From the NCBI RefSeq assembly GCF_001425745.1, contig NZ_LMDF01000006.1, positions 994,035 through 1,058,034 of the forward strand: a stretch of DNA of 64,000 nt, given 5' to 3'. Positions 25,624-32,781 of the stretch are shown here, piece by piece. Positions within the stretch are counted from its first letter, which is position 1. Each line of letters opens with the position of its first letter. Below the pieces are notes generated by a model, which was not told where the DNA came from, made no database searches, and was given only the letters and a program-made list of their open reading frames with translations. The DNA comes from Caulobacter sp. Root343. Its GTDB lineage: Bacteria > Pseudomonadota > Alphaproteobacteria > Caulobacterales > Caulobacteraceae. The position numbers and the translations under genes are program-made.

Positions 25624-25735
25624 TCTCCTCCCCTTCGGGGGGAGGTGGCCCAGAGGGCCGGGAGGGGGTAGCACGGCGCTGGCCGAGAAACCCCCTCAGT
25701 CGCTCCGCGACAGCTCCCCCGCGACGCGGTGGAGC
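25624..25735. repeat. GC-rich palindromic intergenic repeat after podJ
   Basis: CCTCCCC-TTC-GGGGGGAGG forms a hairpin at 25627-25645. It is followed by GGAGGGGGT (25661-25669), which can pair with ACCCCCTC (25690-25697), then CAGTCGCTCCGCGACAG. This compound palindrome resembles dispersed intergenic elements common in Caulobacterales and may also end the podJ transcript. Confidence 0.65.
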
Positions 25736-28385: not shown

Positions 28386-29089
28386 TCCGGCCGCAGCGAC
28401 TTCCGACCCACCGCGTGCACCCGCTTGGGGCCTAAGGCGCCCGCTAGCAGCGGCCCGGCGAACAGGTTCGAGAACGCCTCGTCCAGGACGTTCAACCCGC
28501 CCGTGAAGGCGCCGAATGCCGGCAGCACCAGCCGCTGGCCATCGGTGACGAAGCAGCGGCGGCGGATGGTGGCGCGGCCGCTGGTGACCTTGGCGGCCGG
28601 GTGCAGGTGACCCGCGACCTCGCCGAACTGGACGCCGGGCAGGGGCTCGTGGCGCAGGGTCAGGCCGGCGATCACGGCCTCGTCGATGATCTCGCCGGGC
28701 AGAACCTTCGGGCCGTCGGCGTCGTGGTTGCCGACCGCCCAGACTAGCTCGCGGCCCAGGGCTAGGCCCTCCAGCCGCCTCGCGTCGTCATGCGCCAGCC
28801 GCGCCTCGCCGTCGCCGTCGTGGAAGCTGTCGCCCAGGAAGATCAGGCGATCGGGCGTGAGCAGGGCGATTTCGCGGTCCAGCCGGTCCAGGGTCTCGCG
28901 GGTGTCGTAGGGCGGCAGCATCTGGCCGAAGCGCGCGGCGTAGCTGCTACCCTTCTCGAAGTGCAGGTCGGCGACCACCAGGGTGCGCTCGGCCTCCAGC
29001 CACATCGCGCCGGACCAGCGCAGCATGACCTCGACGTTGGACAGGGCGATCCGCAGACCGCCGCAGGATGAAGGGGAGAAACGCGTCAC
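28382..29089 (-). CDS. pdeM: Ligase-associated DNA damage response endonuclease PdeM
   Basis: A 235-residue calcineurin-like metallophosphoesterase. It has VVADLHFEKGSS (metal ligands Asp, His), LIFLGDSFHDGDGE, WAVGNHDAD (GNHD motif) and GHLHPAAKV. These are the marks of PdeM, an endonuclease of a bacterial repair set that also includes an Lhr-type helicase. The GTG start at 29089 overlaps the helicase stop by 4 bases, so the two are coupled. The frame is open further upstream but inside the helicase gene. The ligase and exonuclease of the classic four-gene set are not in this window. Confidence 0.85.
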   Translation of the reverse strand: MTRFSPSSCGGLRIALSNVEVMLRWSGAMWLEAERTLVVADLHFEKGSSYAARFGQMLPPYDTRETLDRLDREIALLTPDRLIFLGDSFHDGDGEARLAHDDARRLEGLALGRELVWAVGNHDADGPKVLPGEIIDEAVIAGLTLRHEPLPGVQFGEVAGHLHPAAKVTSGRATIRRRCFVTDGQRLVLPAFGAFTGGLNVLDEAFSNLFAGPLLAGALGPKRVHAVGRKSLRPD

Positions 29090-31641
29090 GACATGGCCTC
29101 GGCGATCAGGTCTTCCTCGGCCTCGGCCAGGATCATCTCGCCGGCGGCGTCGCCCGGCGCGCGCTCGCGGCCGATCTCCAGCATGATCGGCACGGCGAGC
29201 GGCGAGACGCGGTCCAGCGGCATGTGGCGAATGTTCCCGTGCACGCGGGTCAGCATGTCGCCCAGCCGGGCGATGTCGAGCATGCCGGTGGCCGCGTCGT
29301 GGCGGGCGCAGCGCAGCATCAGGTGGTCGGGTTGGTGTTTGCGCAGCACGTCGTAGATCAGGTCGGTCGAGAAGGTCACCTGCCGCCCGGACTTCTCGGC
29401 GCCGGGGTGGCGACGCTCGATCAGGCCGGCGATCAGGGCGCAATGCTTGAAGGCCCGCTTCATCATGAAGCTCTCGTCGAGCCAAGCCTCCAAGTCATCG
29501 CCGAGCATGTCCTGGGCGAACAGTTCGTCCAGATCCAGGCCGTCCATCGGCCGCAGCGACCACAGGTTCAGGGCGTAGTCGTTGCAGACGAACCCCAGCG
29601 GCCCGACACCAAGCCGGTCAAGCCGCCGAGTCAGCAGCATGGCCAGGGTGGTGTGGGCCAGGCGGCCCTCGAACGGATAGCAGACCATGTGGAAGCGCTT
29701 TCCGTTCGGAAAGGTCTCCAGCAGCATTTCGCCATCGCCCGGAATGGCCGAGCGGATCTTCTGCCAGGCCAGCCATTCCTGGACGTCCGGGGGCAGGGCG
29801 GTCCATTCACGCTCGTCGTGCATCATCTGGCGCACGCGGCTGGCCAGATAGGTCGACAGCGGGAACTTCGAGCCGCCCCAACTGGGCATCTTGGGATCGT
29901 CGTTCGGCGCGGGGGACACGAAGGCGTCAGCGCCGACCATGCTGTTGTAGCGCCAGACCTGGCCGGCGAAGATGAAGGTGTCGCCCGGCGTCAGCTGCTC
30001 GAAATAGCCTTCCTCGGCCTCGCCGATCTTGCGACCGCCCATGGGGCGACGGCCGCCGCCGATACGGATGTTGATCATGCCTGGCGAGACGATGGCTCCG
30101 ACGTTCATCCGGTGCTGCAGGCGCGCCTGGGCGTTGCGGGCGGTCCACAGGCCTTCGGGCGTCTGCACGATGCGGCGGAACTTGTCGTAGGTGCGCAGCG
30201 CGTAGCCGCCGGTCGAGACGAAGTCGACGACGGTCTCGAAGTCCTCCCACGAGAGCTCGGCATAGGGACCGGCCGAACGGACCTCCTCAAAGAGGGCCAT
30301 CAGGTCGAACGGCTCGGAGCAGGCGCAGCCCATCACGTGCTGGGCCAGGGTGTCCAGCGTGCCGATGCGCGGCGGGTCGCCGTCGAGGTGGTTCTCCAGG
30401 ATGGCGTCGGCGGCGGCCCGGCACTCCAGCATCTCGAAGCGGCTGGCCGGCACGAACAGGGCGCGGCTGGGCTCGTCCAGCCGGTGGTTGGCGCGGCCGA
30501 TCCGCTGGACCATCCGCGAGGCCCCCTTGGGCGCGGCCAGCTGGATGACCAGGTCGACGTCGCCCCAGTCGATGCCCATGTCTAGGGTCGAGGTGCAGAC
30601 CACGGCTCGCAGCGCGCCCTTGGCCATGGCCGCCTCGACCTTGCGGCGCTGCTCGGCCGACAGGCTGCCGTGGTGCAGGGCGATCGGCAGGCCCTCGTCG
30701 TTCAGCTCCCACAGGCGCTGGAACGCGAACTCGGCCTGGAAGCGGGTGTTGACGAAGATCAGCGCGGTCTGGGACGACTTGATGATCTCGTAGACCTCGG
30801 CCATGGCGTGCTCGGCCGTATGGCCGGCCCACGGCACGCGGCCGCCGGAGACGAGGACTTCCACCACGGGCTGGGCGCCGCCGGAGCCGAGGACGAGGTC
30901 GATGTTATGCGAAGTCGGGCCCCTCCCCCCTGCGGGGAGGGGTTGGGGTGGGGGAGTTAGCTCTGATAGGGCCGCACTGACACCCCCACCCCCTACCCCC
31001 TCCCCGCAAGGGGGAGGGGAGTTCACCCCCAGCCATTTCCGCACCAGGTCGGGGTCATCCACCGTCGCCGACAGACCCACCCGCCGCAGCGTTGGCGCGA
31101 ACCGCTGCAGTCTCGCCAGGCCCAGCGCCAGCAGGTCGCCCCGCTTGCTCGGCCAGATCGCGTGGGCCTCGTCGATGATCACGCAGCGCAGGTCGGCGAA
31201 ATACTCGCGCGCGCCTTCCCAGGCGCAGAACAGGGCCAACTGCTCGGGGGTCGTCAGCAGGATGTCCGGCGGGCGGATGCGCTGGCGGGCCTTGCGGGCT
31301 TCGCCGGTGTCGCCGGTTCGGCTCTCGGCCACGATCGGCAGGCCCATCTCGCGGATGGGGGTCAGCAGGTTGCGCTCGACGTCGACGGCCAGGGCCTTCA
31401 GCGGCGAGATGTAGAGGGTGTGGACGCCCGCCGGCGTGTTGCGCGGCGGCCGCTCGGTCAGTTCGATCAGGCTGGGCAGGAAGCCGGCCAGGGTCTTGCC
31501 ACCGCCGGTCGGGGCGATCAGCAGCGCGCCGCGCCCTTGGCGGGCCTTCTCCAGCATGGCCAGCTGATGTTCGCGCGGGCTCCAGCCGCGGGCGGCGAAC
31601 CAGTTTCGGAACTTGGGGGGGAGGGCGTCAGCCGCGAGCAT
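29086..31641 (-). CDS. Ligase-associated DEXH-box helicase (Lhr-like), with internal repeat
   Basis: An 851-residue SF2 helicase of the ligase-associated Lhr group. Walker A is APTGGGKT (residues 43-50) and the DEAH box is IIDEAHAIW (157-160). SAT motif III is at 191-193. The second RecA domain includes LIFVNTRFQAEF, CTSTLDMGIDWGDVDLVIQL and the QRIGRANHR motif VI. Lhr-type C-terminal domains follow. Residues about 207-242 (SPPPCGEGVGGGGVSAALSE, then PPPQPLPAGGRGP) are absent from family logic and are encoded by a palindromic repeat that keeps the frame. The insertion lies just after the first RecA domain. Transcribed with pdeM; an SOS-box-like motif lies 18 bases upstream. Confidence 0.88.
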   Translation of the reverse strand: MLAADALPPKFRNWFAARGWSPREHQLAMLEKARQGRGALLIAPTGGGKTLAGFLPSLIELTERPPRNTPAGVHTLYISPLKALAVDVERNLLTPIREMGLPIVAESRTGDTGEARKARQRIRPPDILLTTPEQLALFCAWEGAREYFADLRCVIIDEAHAIWPSKRGDLLALGLARLQRFAPTLRRVGLSATVDDPDLVRKWLGVNSPPPCGEGVGGGGVSAALSELTPPPQPLPAGGRGPTSHNIDLVLGSGGAQPVVEVLVSGGRVPWAGHTAEHAMAEVYEIIKSSQTALIFVNTRFQAEFAFQRLWELNDEGLPIALHHGSLSAEQRRKVEAAMAKGALRAVVCTSTLDMGIDWGDVDLVIQLAAPKGASRMVQRIGRANHRLDEPSRALFVPASRFEMLECRAAADAILENHLDGDPPRIGTLDTLAQHVMGCACSEPFDLMALFEEVRSAGPYAELSWEDFETVVDFVSTGGYALRTYDKFRRIVQTPEGLWTARNAQARLQHRMNVGAIVSPGMINIRIGGGRRPMGGRKIGEAEEGYFEQLTPGDTFIFAGQVWRYNSMVGADAFVSPAPNDDPKMPSWGGSKFPLSTYLASRVRQMMHDEREWTALPPDVQEWLAWQKIRSAIPGDGEMLLETFPNGKRFHMVCYPFEGRLAHTTLAMLLTRRLDRLGVGPLGFVCNDYALNLWSLRPMDGLDLDELFAQDMLGDDLEAWLDESFMMKRAFKHCALIAGLIERRHPGAEKSGRQVTFSTDLIYDVLRKHQPDHLMLRCARHDAATGMLDIARLGDMLTRVHGNIRHMPLDRVSPLAVPIMLEIGRERAPGDAAGEMILAEAEEDLIAEAMS
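30916..31023. repeat. Palindromic repeat element inserted in frame in the Lhr-like helicase
   Basis: The 108 bases contain two strong hairpins, CCCCTCCCC...GGGGAGGGG at each end (about 30921-30943 and 30998-31019). The inner arms GGGGTGGGGG and CCCCCACCCC also pair. It encodes about 36 residues rich in Pro and Gly without a stop. It resembles GC-rich intergenic palindromes of Caulobacterales. Confidence 0.8.
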
Positions 31642-31658
31642 TGTTCGCGATATAGCAT

Positions 31659-31674
31659 GTTCCCCTTCTGTTTC
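31659..31674. promoter_or_regulatory. SOS-box-like motif upstream of the Lhr-like helicase
   Basis: GTTCCCCTTCTGTTTC is GTTC-N7-GTTT, one base from the alphaproteobacterial LexA box GTTC-N7-GTTC. It lies 18 bases before the helicase start, between the divergent helicase and Sel1 genes. A copy differing at one base lies at 32798-32813 before the second helicase. Confidence 0.55.
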
Positions 31675-31803
31675 ACCTGTCTTTTGCGCGCTGGTCCCTT
31701 TCGCTAGCGCCTGCGGGGCGAGTTCGGTTGCGCGTGGTCAGGCTTGAGGTTGTCTGCCTTGACGCCCCGCCCGTCGAGCCGACGATCGAGGGGCGGTGGG
31801 GAC

Positions 31804-32781
31804 ATGATGAGAAGCAGGGTGCTGCCTGTGCTGGTGGGCTTGGCGCTGTCGATGGGCGGCGCGGCTGGCGCGTGGGAGGACACCGGCGCCGGTGAGGCGC
31901 GGGCGGCCTTTGAGGTCGCGCTCAGCCAGGCCAGGCGCGGCGACGCCACCCGCTATGTCGACCTCGCCATGCTGTACCTGGAGGGCGACGGCGTCGGCCG
32001 CGACGTGCCCCAGGCGCTGTTCTGGCTGCGCAAGGGGGTGGCCGGCGGCGACACCGACGCCATGGTCGAGCTGGGCAACGTCTACTTCGACGGTACGGAC
32101 GGCGTGAAGGCCGACCACCGCGCGGCGTTGAAGCTCTATGCCAGGGCGGCCCAGCTGGGCGATCCGAATGGCATGTACAATGTCGGCGTGACCCACGAAG
32201 GCGGCGGGGGGATCCGCGAGACCCCGAGCTTGGCGCTGGCCTGGTATCTGAAGGCCGCCGCCGCGGGTTCGGCCCGGGGCGCCTATAGCGCGGGCGAAGC
32301 CTATCTCGACGGCTACGGGACCAAGGTTGATACGGCCAAGGGCGTCCTGATGCTGGGCCGGGCGATCGAGATGGGTTCGGCCGAGGCCATGAACGCCATG
32401 GGCCGCCTGCGCTCGGAAGGCCGCGCCGTGCGGGGCGATGACGCCGAGGCGCTGCGCCTGTACGCCGCCGCCGCCAGCAACGACCTGCCCGCCGGCATGT
32501 CGAACCTGGGCGTCGTGCACCACAATGGCGAGGGCGTGCCGGTCAACTATGTCGAGGCGATGCGCTGGTTCCAGATGGCGGCCGACCGGGGCTATCTCGA
32601 GGCTTGGTACGACCTTGGCGTCATGTGCGAGCGTGGCCAGGGCATCAAGGCCGACGACGATCTCGCCTTGCTGATGTATCGCCGGGCCGCCGAGAGCGAG
32701 GACGCCGACCTGCGCCAGAAGGCCCAGAAGGCGATCAACCGGCTGGAAGGCTTCGACGACGACGAAAGCCCGATCGGCTGA
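31804..32781 (+). CDS. Exported Sel1-repeat protein
   Basis: A 325-residue protein with a Sec signal peptide (about residues 1-23, ending GGAAGA). At least six Sel1-like repeats follow, each with an AMxxLGxxYxxG-type pattern (YVDLAMLYLEGDGVGRDVPQ, AMVELGNVYFDGTDGVKADH, GMSNLGVVHHNGEGVPVNYV, AWYDLGVMCERGQGIKADDD). Such proteins are usually periplasmic adaptors for protein-protein contacts. The frame is open from 31744; the ATG at 31804 with GGTGGGG upstream starts the signal peptide. No partner is evident. Confidence 0.8.
   Translation: MMRSRVLPVLVGLALSMGGAAGAWEDTGAGEARAAFEVALSQARRGDATRYVDLAMLYLEGDGVGRDVPQALFWLRKGVAGGDTDAMVELGNVYFDGTDGVKADHRAALKLYARAAQLGDPNGMYNVGVTHEGGGGIRETPSLALAWYLKAAAAGSARGAYSAGEAYLDGYGTKVDTAKGVLMLGRAIEMGSAEAMNAMGRLRSEGRAVRGDDAEALRLYAAAASNDLPAGMSNLGVVHHNGEGVPVNYVEAMRWFQMAADRGYLEAWYDLGVMCERGQGIKADDDLALLMYRRAAESEDADLRQKAQKAINRLEGFDDDESPIG

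Follow-up and report, generated by a model that had tools for sequence, protein, structure and literature searches.

A palindromic element read in frame within a repair helicase gene of Caulobacter and its putative relation to DUF559 nuclease genes

A gene for a repair helicase of Caulobacter sp. Root343 contains a palindromic element of about 100 bp, which is read through in frame. The element was studied within a window of 64,000 nucleotides (contig NZ_LMDF01000006.1, positions 994,035 to 1,058,034), to whose own numbering all window coordinates refer. In the genus Caulobacter, three palindrome families, designated A, B and C, alternate at the same helicase codons without phylogenetic signal, and genes for DUF559 nucleases (PF04480) are often found between inverted palindromic arms. 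On balance, we favor the view that the helicase element is a gene-less derivative of the DUF559-encoding family A, similar to a miniature inverted-repeat transposable element (MITE), and that it resides in a tolerant loop where one family has been replaced by another. A first-pass annotation of the window, which was made from the DNA sequence, had already recognized the element. Our data partly support its reading, to which they add that several families turn over at one site and that such palindromes can enclose DUF559 nuclease genes. The relevant features are the following:

29086-31641, minus strand: helicase gene (TIGR04121, ligase-associated Lhr-type DEXH), 851 aa, reading frame uninterrupted by the element
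30920-31019, no strand: family-A palindromic element, gene-less, in frame at approximately residues 208-241 of the helicase
30920-30957, no strand: first arm, 38 nt, composed of the hairpin 30920-30942 and a G-rich tail
30958-30981, no strand: spacer between the arms, 24 nt, at the position of the nuclease gene in the DUF559-bearing relative
30982-31019, no strand: second arm, 38 nt, composed of a C-rich tail and the hairpin 30997-31019

The helicase matched the NCBIfam profile TIGR04121 (ligase-associated DEXH box helicase) with 1055 bits, in two stretches, and contains the domains DEAD, Helicase_C, WH_Lhr and DEAD_assoc. The core of the element is formed by the two inverted 38-nt arms, which are complementary to 84%, lie 24 nt apart and harbor one CCCCTCCCC..GGGGAGGGG hairpin each. 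When up to three mismatches were allowed, this hairpin pattern was detected six times in the window (0.17 expected), and four of the matches belong to the helicase element (two hairpins, each on both strands). The DNA fold of the element reached -43.3 kcal/mol compared to -27.7 kcal/mol for shuffled sequences (z = -5.5). Thus, the first-pass annotation was right in reporting a palindromic repeat that keeps the frame of a repair helicase, and the boundaries given there (30916-31023) were correct to within a few bases. In the eight family-A inserts of the genus, on average 4.4 of all six frames are open. A search of window positions 30000-32000 against Rfam did not disclose any RNA family at the gathering threshold. 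A hairpin of similar composition (CTCCTCCCCTTCGGGGGGAGGTG) is located at window positions 25625-25647.

The loop containing the element is approximately 37 aa longer than in the shorter, empty orthologues (57 versus 20 aa between chosen anchors). In an AlphaFold2 model of the helicase (25 sequences, predicted template modeling score (pTM) 0.70), residues 210-244 had a predicted local distance difference test score (pLDDT) below 50, and this loop is flanked by a helix (197-204) following motif III and by a strand (247-251). The best fold match of the model was the Lhr protein of M. smegmatis (5V9X), and sequence alignment placed the insert just past the corresponding helix of that structure. 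The prediction of a loop without structure agrees with the tolerant site that had been suggested for the insertion.

Matches to the helicase were obtained in all 75 genomes of the genus, some of them fragmentary, and 72 loci from 70 genomes were read. Sixty-three sites were counted, 62 by script and one (G001, type C) by eye from its peptide; inserts were typed by motif and by eye. Excluded before counting were a site with an N run (G027), five sites that were split, cut or frame-broken (G028, G055, G063, G064, G072) and G021, whose loop reads empty but whose gene is in pieces. Five genomes (G037, G054, G060, G066, G067) contributed only helicase fragments and were left out. The 63 loops comprised 18 empty sites, 34 full elements, seven short remnants and four readable but untyped inserts (G040, G047, G052, G068). 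Alignment of orthologues, which had been proposed as a check for strain specificity, hence revealed that the segment is absent from some of them and not conserved at the protein level throughout. Among the genomes, family A, the type of the window, was found eight times, family B 13 times and family C eight times; four more inserts were B-like, and the insert of G020 resembled a dimer of CCTC/CGTC repetitive extragenic palindromes (REPs). Nearly all full elements (33 of 34; G050 ties) were more palindromic than each of their 60 shuffled versions. The same applied to five of the seven short elements (not to G026 and G036), and of the untyped inserts G040 and G047 narrowly exceeded their shuffles.

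To place the families on a phylogeny, a quick single-gene tree of the helicase was used from which the insert had been removed. It comprised 70 rows, and 17 of its 67 inner branches were weak. In 29 rows of this tree, the types A, B and C required 13 changes, compared to a mean of 13.3 after shuffling (159 of 300 shuffles at or below the observed value). Sister genomes were in unlike states, e.g., C in G019 and A in G016, A in G010 and B in G031, or B in G012 and an empty site in G013. Elements have also collapsed: a full B element is present in G045, while G026 and G043 contain a short remnant between similar flanks. In the one-contig genome G072, a collapsed single hairpin breaks the helicase frame, and its relative G069 possesses a full element with near-identical flanks. 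The frame break (L082) either is genuine or results from a sequencing error in a homopolymer. In G064 (L077/L078) and G028 (L086/L087) the insert coincides with contig ends and in G027 (L107) with an N run; assemblies may therefore under-report such elements.

The host sequence next to the insert provided a hint on how the families succeeded each other. At 32 occupied sites with inserts of families A, B and C within the crown of the tree, whose rows were picked by us, the third loop residue was Asn in 23 and His in four cases; none of the seven empty crown sites showed Asn. Accordingly, the codon AAC or AAT flanks the insert at 23 of 32 occupied and at none of seven empty sites. As the three families have these host flanks in common, exchange of a palindrome already in place is favored over a fresh insertion each time. 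The loop could instead be a tolerant or targeted spot at which every family arrives anew, no palindrome being exchanged for another. This explanation, which we regard as somewhat unlikely, would fit the empty sites nested within the helicase tree, the REP-like dimer filling the loop of G020, and the long inserts that peptides disclose in the same loop of some Phenylobacterium strains, Brevundimonas basaltis and one Mesorhizobium, but the common AAC/AAT flank would not be expected from independent hits on an empty site. Judged from peptides, the loop is short in most of 80 named relatives, which belong mainly to the Rhizobiales. The Mesorhizobium insert (L303, Mesorhizobium sp. IRAMC:0171) stems from another order and is probably an independent event.

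The first-pass annotation had further considered that the element may create a new protein segment. In four inserts with similar flanks, changes were spread evenly over the three codon positions (for example 5, 4 and 5 in 47 insert codons versus 31, 16 and 125 in 500 flanking codons), which gives no sign of a use at the protein level, and the idea of a useful segment was dropped as unsupported. The inserts also diverge less than the third codon positions of the gene. A second in-frame insertion of about 25 aa (RPSRxG.AP..STFADRARGG) was observed near residue 535 in the winged-helix region. Its carriers G022, G033, G061 and G027 (L089, L103, L105, L107) are found in different parts of the tree, and its DNA (..GCAAAACCGG.TTCCACTTTTGCTGA..) lies outside families A, B and C.

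A gene-bearing relative of the element was identified in the Root343 genome. Two half-elements are situated there about 400 bp apart, and the gene between them belongs to PF04480; the PF04480 match of this family-A nuclease unit (C1:553657-553974) is bordered by the same two arms, one of which shares 98% identity with the helicase insert across 44 nt. As known for MITEs, the gene-less element thus shares its ends with a gene-bearing parent in the same genome. All four DUF559 genes of Root343 above the PF04480 cut-off are placed between inverted palindromic arms. In the genus, a first test revealed arms at 24 of 31 DUF559 loci. After the addition of 40 hand-picked loci, whose genes were located by tblastn, 61 of 71 scored above 19, and so did all of 20 further loci chosen from genomes with typed inserts. 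Altogether, 81 of 91 usable loci exceeded a score of 19 and 77 a score of 22; three loci at contig ends (L124, L134, L148) were left out. Random intervals of the window (n = 1500) had their 99th percentile at 19 and a maximum of 22, and no score above 19 was obtained with flanks that were reversed without complementing (0 of 100). Intervals taken from 30 helicase loci of the genus (n = 1500) exceeded 19 in 30 and 22 in three cases, with a maximum of 27. Because of these 30 cases the stricter threshold of 22 was added.

The link between DUF559 genes and arms is wide but not universal. In a survey of the class, the DUF559 domain was present in 51 of 142 genomes; of 29 alphaproteobacterial loci from 29 families, 21 scored above 19 and 18 above 22, compared to one of 961 control intervals above 19. 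In a sample of the phylum, 13 of 25 loci exceeded 19 (six of 14 alphaproteobacterial and seven of 11 other loci) versus eight of 533 controls. The residues E9, D38, E49, D51, H55 and D64 (typed-query numbering), which are catalytic-type residues of the EDxHD kind, are conserved in 99-100 of 100 DUF559 loci. Changes among copies of the family-A nuclease are concentrated at the third codon position (e.g., 5, 5 and 24 at the three positions). Judged by these sequence features, the nuclease looks active. A solved relative is the endonuclease-like protein 3HRL (E-value 1.2e-12).

One may object that DUF559 proteins are cellular Vsr-like repair nucleases and that the surrounding palindromes are terminators or regulatory hairpins unrelated to mobile elements. 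The C. crescentus protein VsrA is reported to contain a DUF559 domain and to be Vsr-like and of the PD-(D/E)XK type, and was studied with regard to its interplay with cytosine methylation (PMC12907096, in the portion available). Moreover, the family-A units in hand represent one locus with changes mostly at third codon positions. On the other hand, the DUF559 gene is flanked by two inverted halves from a single palindrome family, 100-bp elements elsewhere consist of similar halves lacking the gene, and nucleases with similar arms reside at different places, as 163 of 191 such pairs do not have a common outer flank. We consider a purely cellular role unlikely.

Nuclease and arms also vary together. 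Across the genus, similarity of the nuclease proteins and similarity of their arms were correlated with a Mantel r of 0.81 (n = 61; 0 of 2000 permutations), and r was still 0.75 for pairs with a protein similarity below 0.8. By eye, B-like arms were recognized at five DUF559 loci (L384, L386, L391, L394, L403) and C-like arms at four (L395, L397, L401, L402). Helicase inserts matched the DUF559 arms of their own genomes with a mean score of 27.2 versus 22.2 after permutation (1 of 5000; 23 genomes, incompletely sampled). The family-A nuclease was present in ten of 75 genomes (identity at least 71%, next match 50%). Among typed genomes, it occurred in five of eight with an A insert, as opposed to four of the 51 remaining ones (Fisher p 0.001). 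All ten genomes with this nuclease contained at least four matches to the A-arm pattern, two of which may be the arms of the unit itself; of the 65 genomes lacking it, 26 had at least one match and 39 none. These data bear on a further possibility, according to which homologous recombination between species carries helicase DNA with its inserts, the elements being immobile relics. The missing phylogenetic signal of the insert type would be compatible with it, given that the single-gene tree was made quickly and that 17 of its 67 inner branches are weak. However, since this tree was built from the helicase, whole-allele exchange would move tree and insert jointly and only very short tracts would suffice. 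Furthermore, the inserts match the DUF559 arms of their own genomes better than permuted ones. We judge this scenario to be quite improbable.

Copies of family A were not confined to the helicase. A second host gene encodes a fusion of TIGR03915 and UdgX (DUF4130), putatively a DNA repair protein. Family-A elements were found in frame in this gene at seven of 30 loci (G071, G028, G074, G002, G009, G064, G022), and the element is read there in the frame that is also used in the helicase. Three of the 30 loci were unreadable by script; it misread or cut L222, L233, L240 and L243 in this gene, and the genome of L222 was recovered. Peptides of further species indicate other inserts in the same gene. 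With a strict paired pattern, 13 of 75 genomes were found to contain complete family-A copies without a gene, 17 in all, three of them in the helicase, three in the TIGR03915-UdgX gene and 11 without a coding-like frame across the element; two of the latter lie at contig ends. In G000, G010 and G016 the helicase copy was the sole find with this pattern. In the Root343 genome, about 330 hairpin matches per strand were counted, and 25 palindrome loci were examined, which include halves of one element and repeated places. A coding-frame criterion flagged only the helicase copy among these 25 loci. Since the same criterion misses three known copies in the second gene, further intragenic copies are possible. 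The intragenic copies which the first-pass annotation had suggested looking for were thus seen in two genes; insertion into many genes was not seen by a criterion that misses known copies. Two other observations were made in Root343. A different palindrome family (TCCTCCCCCTCTGGGGGAGGGGGACCGCC...) is common in this genome (e.g., L022, L023, L025-L036), and none of its loci was flagged as intragenic by the coding-frame criterion. At C5:368170 (L007/L008), a hybrid element has a family-A arm beside an arm of another family.

We suggest the following course of events for a gene-less derivative of family A in a loop subject to family replacement. The DUF559 nuclease would mobilize the elements by acting in trans on palindromes with its own arms, cutting or nicking extruded hairpins, whereupon host repair would copy the elements to new places or swap palindromes. 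The helicase loop may have been occupied once, in the ancestor of the crown Caulobacter species. From then on the palindrome in residence would have acted as a docking site, at which a family could be replaced by another through repair between palindromes with common C-rich/G-rich hairpin ends. The loop has probably persisted because it tolerates an unstructured Pro/Gly-rich insert, selection holding the frame open rather than preserving amino acids. In-frame outcomes would survive in a loop tolerating disorder, while out-of-frame ones such as that of G072, unless this is a sequencing error, are presumably lost.

Several points weigh against this reading. Mobility in trans is suggested by polymorphic occupancy and type turnover only, and no movement was observed. 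A target-site duplication was not recognized by eye at the helicase loop, whose flanks are too variable. Co-variation of nuclease and arms is also expected if both are merely inherited jointly or move as one unit. All seven family-A nuclease units in hand belong to one orthologous locus; therefore, the A nuclease looks fixed, similar to a REP-associated tyrosine transposase (RAYT), rather than mobile. In 11 of 23 genomes the helicase insert had no close match among the arms of its own genome (score below 29), and the C insert of G074 matched best with a B-like arm. Three genomes with an A insert (G059, G016, G050) were without a detected A nuclease, as were G003, G024, G025 and G028 with 9-23 matches to the A-arm pattern. 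Included in the counts by this pattern are the two arms of the nuclease unit itself and a sub-family, A', whose second arm differs. At a threshold of 19, arms were missing at ten of 91 loci in the genus, eight of 29 in the class and 12 of 25 in the phylum sample, several positive scores were marginal (20-22), and the DUF559 loci had been taken by score or chosen by hand rather than at random. Finally, VsrA has been reported as a Vsr-like nuclease behind an SOS response, and the accessible portion of that report makes no link to repeats (PMC12907096).

Some properties of the helicase element are known from other repeat systems. Caulobacter CIR repeats are likewise about 110 bp long, have two stem-loops and occur in Caulobacter and other alphaproteobacteria. 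However, according to the available parts of the sources they carry GANTC, are intergenic and have stops in all frames (PMC2229807, PMC10969869). As window positions 30914-31027 do not contain a GANTC (CcrM) site and this copy is intragenic and read through, membership in CIR was rejected. A resemblance of the in-frame palindrome to the Rickettsia palindromic elements (RPEs) had been pointed out by the first-pass annotation, and our element indeed behaves as those do. RPEs are palindromes of about 105-150 bp that form several families and are tolerated in frame within protein genes (PMC2229807, PMC10969869, both as far as accessible), and the helicase element, too, is a palindrome in the range of about 100-150 bp lying in frame in a protein gene. 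It differs in that RPEs were reported from 19 reading frames already in the first study, as opposed to the two host genes seen here, and in that the accessible text names no nuclease partner for RPE (PMC2229807).

REPs with GTAG or CGTC tags resemble the Caulobacter inserts in being palindromes in frame in repair genes, with differing repeats at about one site. A study of 2013 reported many intragenic REPs in genes of DNA replication and repair, and noted that the REPs at roughly one site of Xanthomonas recB differ; CGTC REPs were said there to be mostly alphaproteobacterial and to lack a dedicated transposase (PMC3733652, in the sections available). In the main text of this paper, Caulobacter is not mentioned. 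Unlike families A, B and C, these REPs have a terminal GTAG or CGTC tag and a CCA tail; in Caulobacter, arms similar to the inserts flank DUF559 genes. Inspection by eye of families A, B and C for the marks of CGTC REPs (terminal CGTC, TGTC or CCTC, a stem of 8-9 bp starting from AT pairs, a CCA tail) was negative, the insert of G020 alone resembling them, and in the helicase element GTAG occurs only inside an arm and not at its end. Ordinary REP/RAYT biology, in which REPs are moved by a Y1 tyrosine transposase, deserves hardly any credit for our element, even though REPs are known with palindromic pairs and with intragenic copies in repair genes (PMC3733652, same sections), since the family-A element has no terminal GTAG tetranucleotide and PF01797 gave no matches in the Root343 genome in a search that was positive in E. 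coli and C. vibrioides. RAYT as the mobilizer in Root343, the one genome searched, was consequently rejected.

In-frame repeats in repair genes, i.e., RPEs and intragenic REPs, are known already; a connection of such palindromes with DUF559 was not found in print. The gene enclosed by the arms belongs to the DUF559/Vsr-like endonucleases (PF04480; 3HRL), for which a search of titles and abstracts of open-licence papers gave no association with palindromes or role in palindromic elements. Several classes of proteobacterial palindromic repeats have no known mobilizing enzyme, and DUF559 is a concrete and testable candidate because it lies often inside such palindromes across many families and co-varies with them in sequence. 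If this is true, the DUF559 nucleases could supply the missing enzyme for other palindromes without a transposase. Meanwhile, the helicase loop, in which repeats are translated, swapped and collapsed within one genus, opens the entry of palindromes into proteins to experiment. A system of similar organization is REPIN-RAYT, where a single-copy gene of nuclease type is likewise accompanied by scattered gene-less palindromes (PMC3116915, in the part available), but which relies on a HuH Y1 transposase instead of a PD-(D/E)XK Vsr-like DUF559 protein. As a tentative generalization, which we hold with less confidence than the origin of the helicase element itself, DUF559 Vsr-like endonucleases may be the enzymes of a class of palindromic selfish elements that is widespread in Pseudomonadota and so far unrecognized. 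This class would form a PD-(D/E)XK counterpart of RAYT-REPIN in which every subfamily would drive a palindrome family of its own, and individual codons in repair genes would be lasting docking sites for the in-frame displacement of one family by another.

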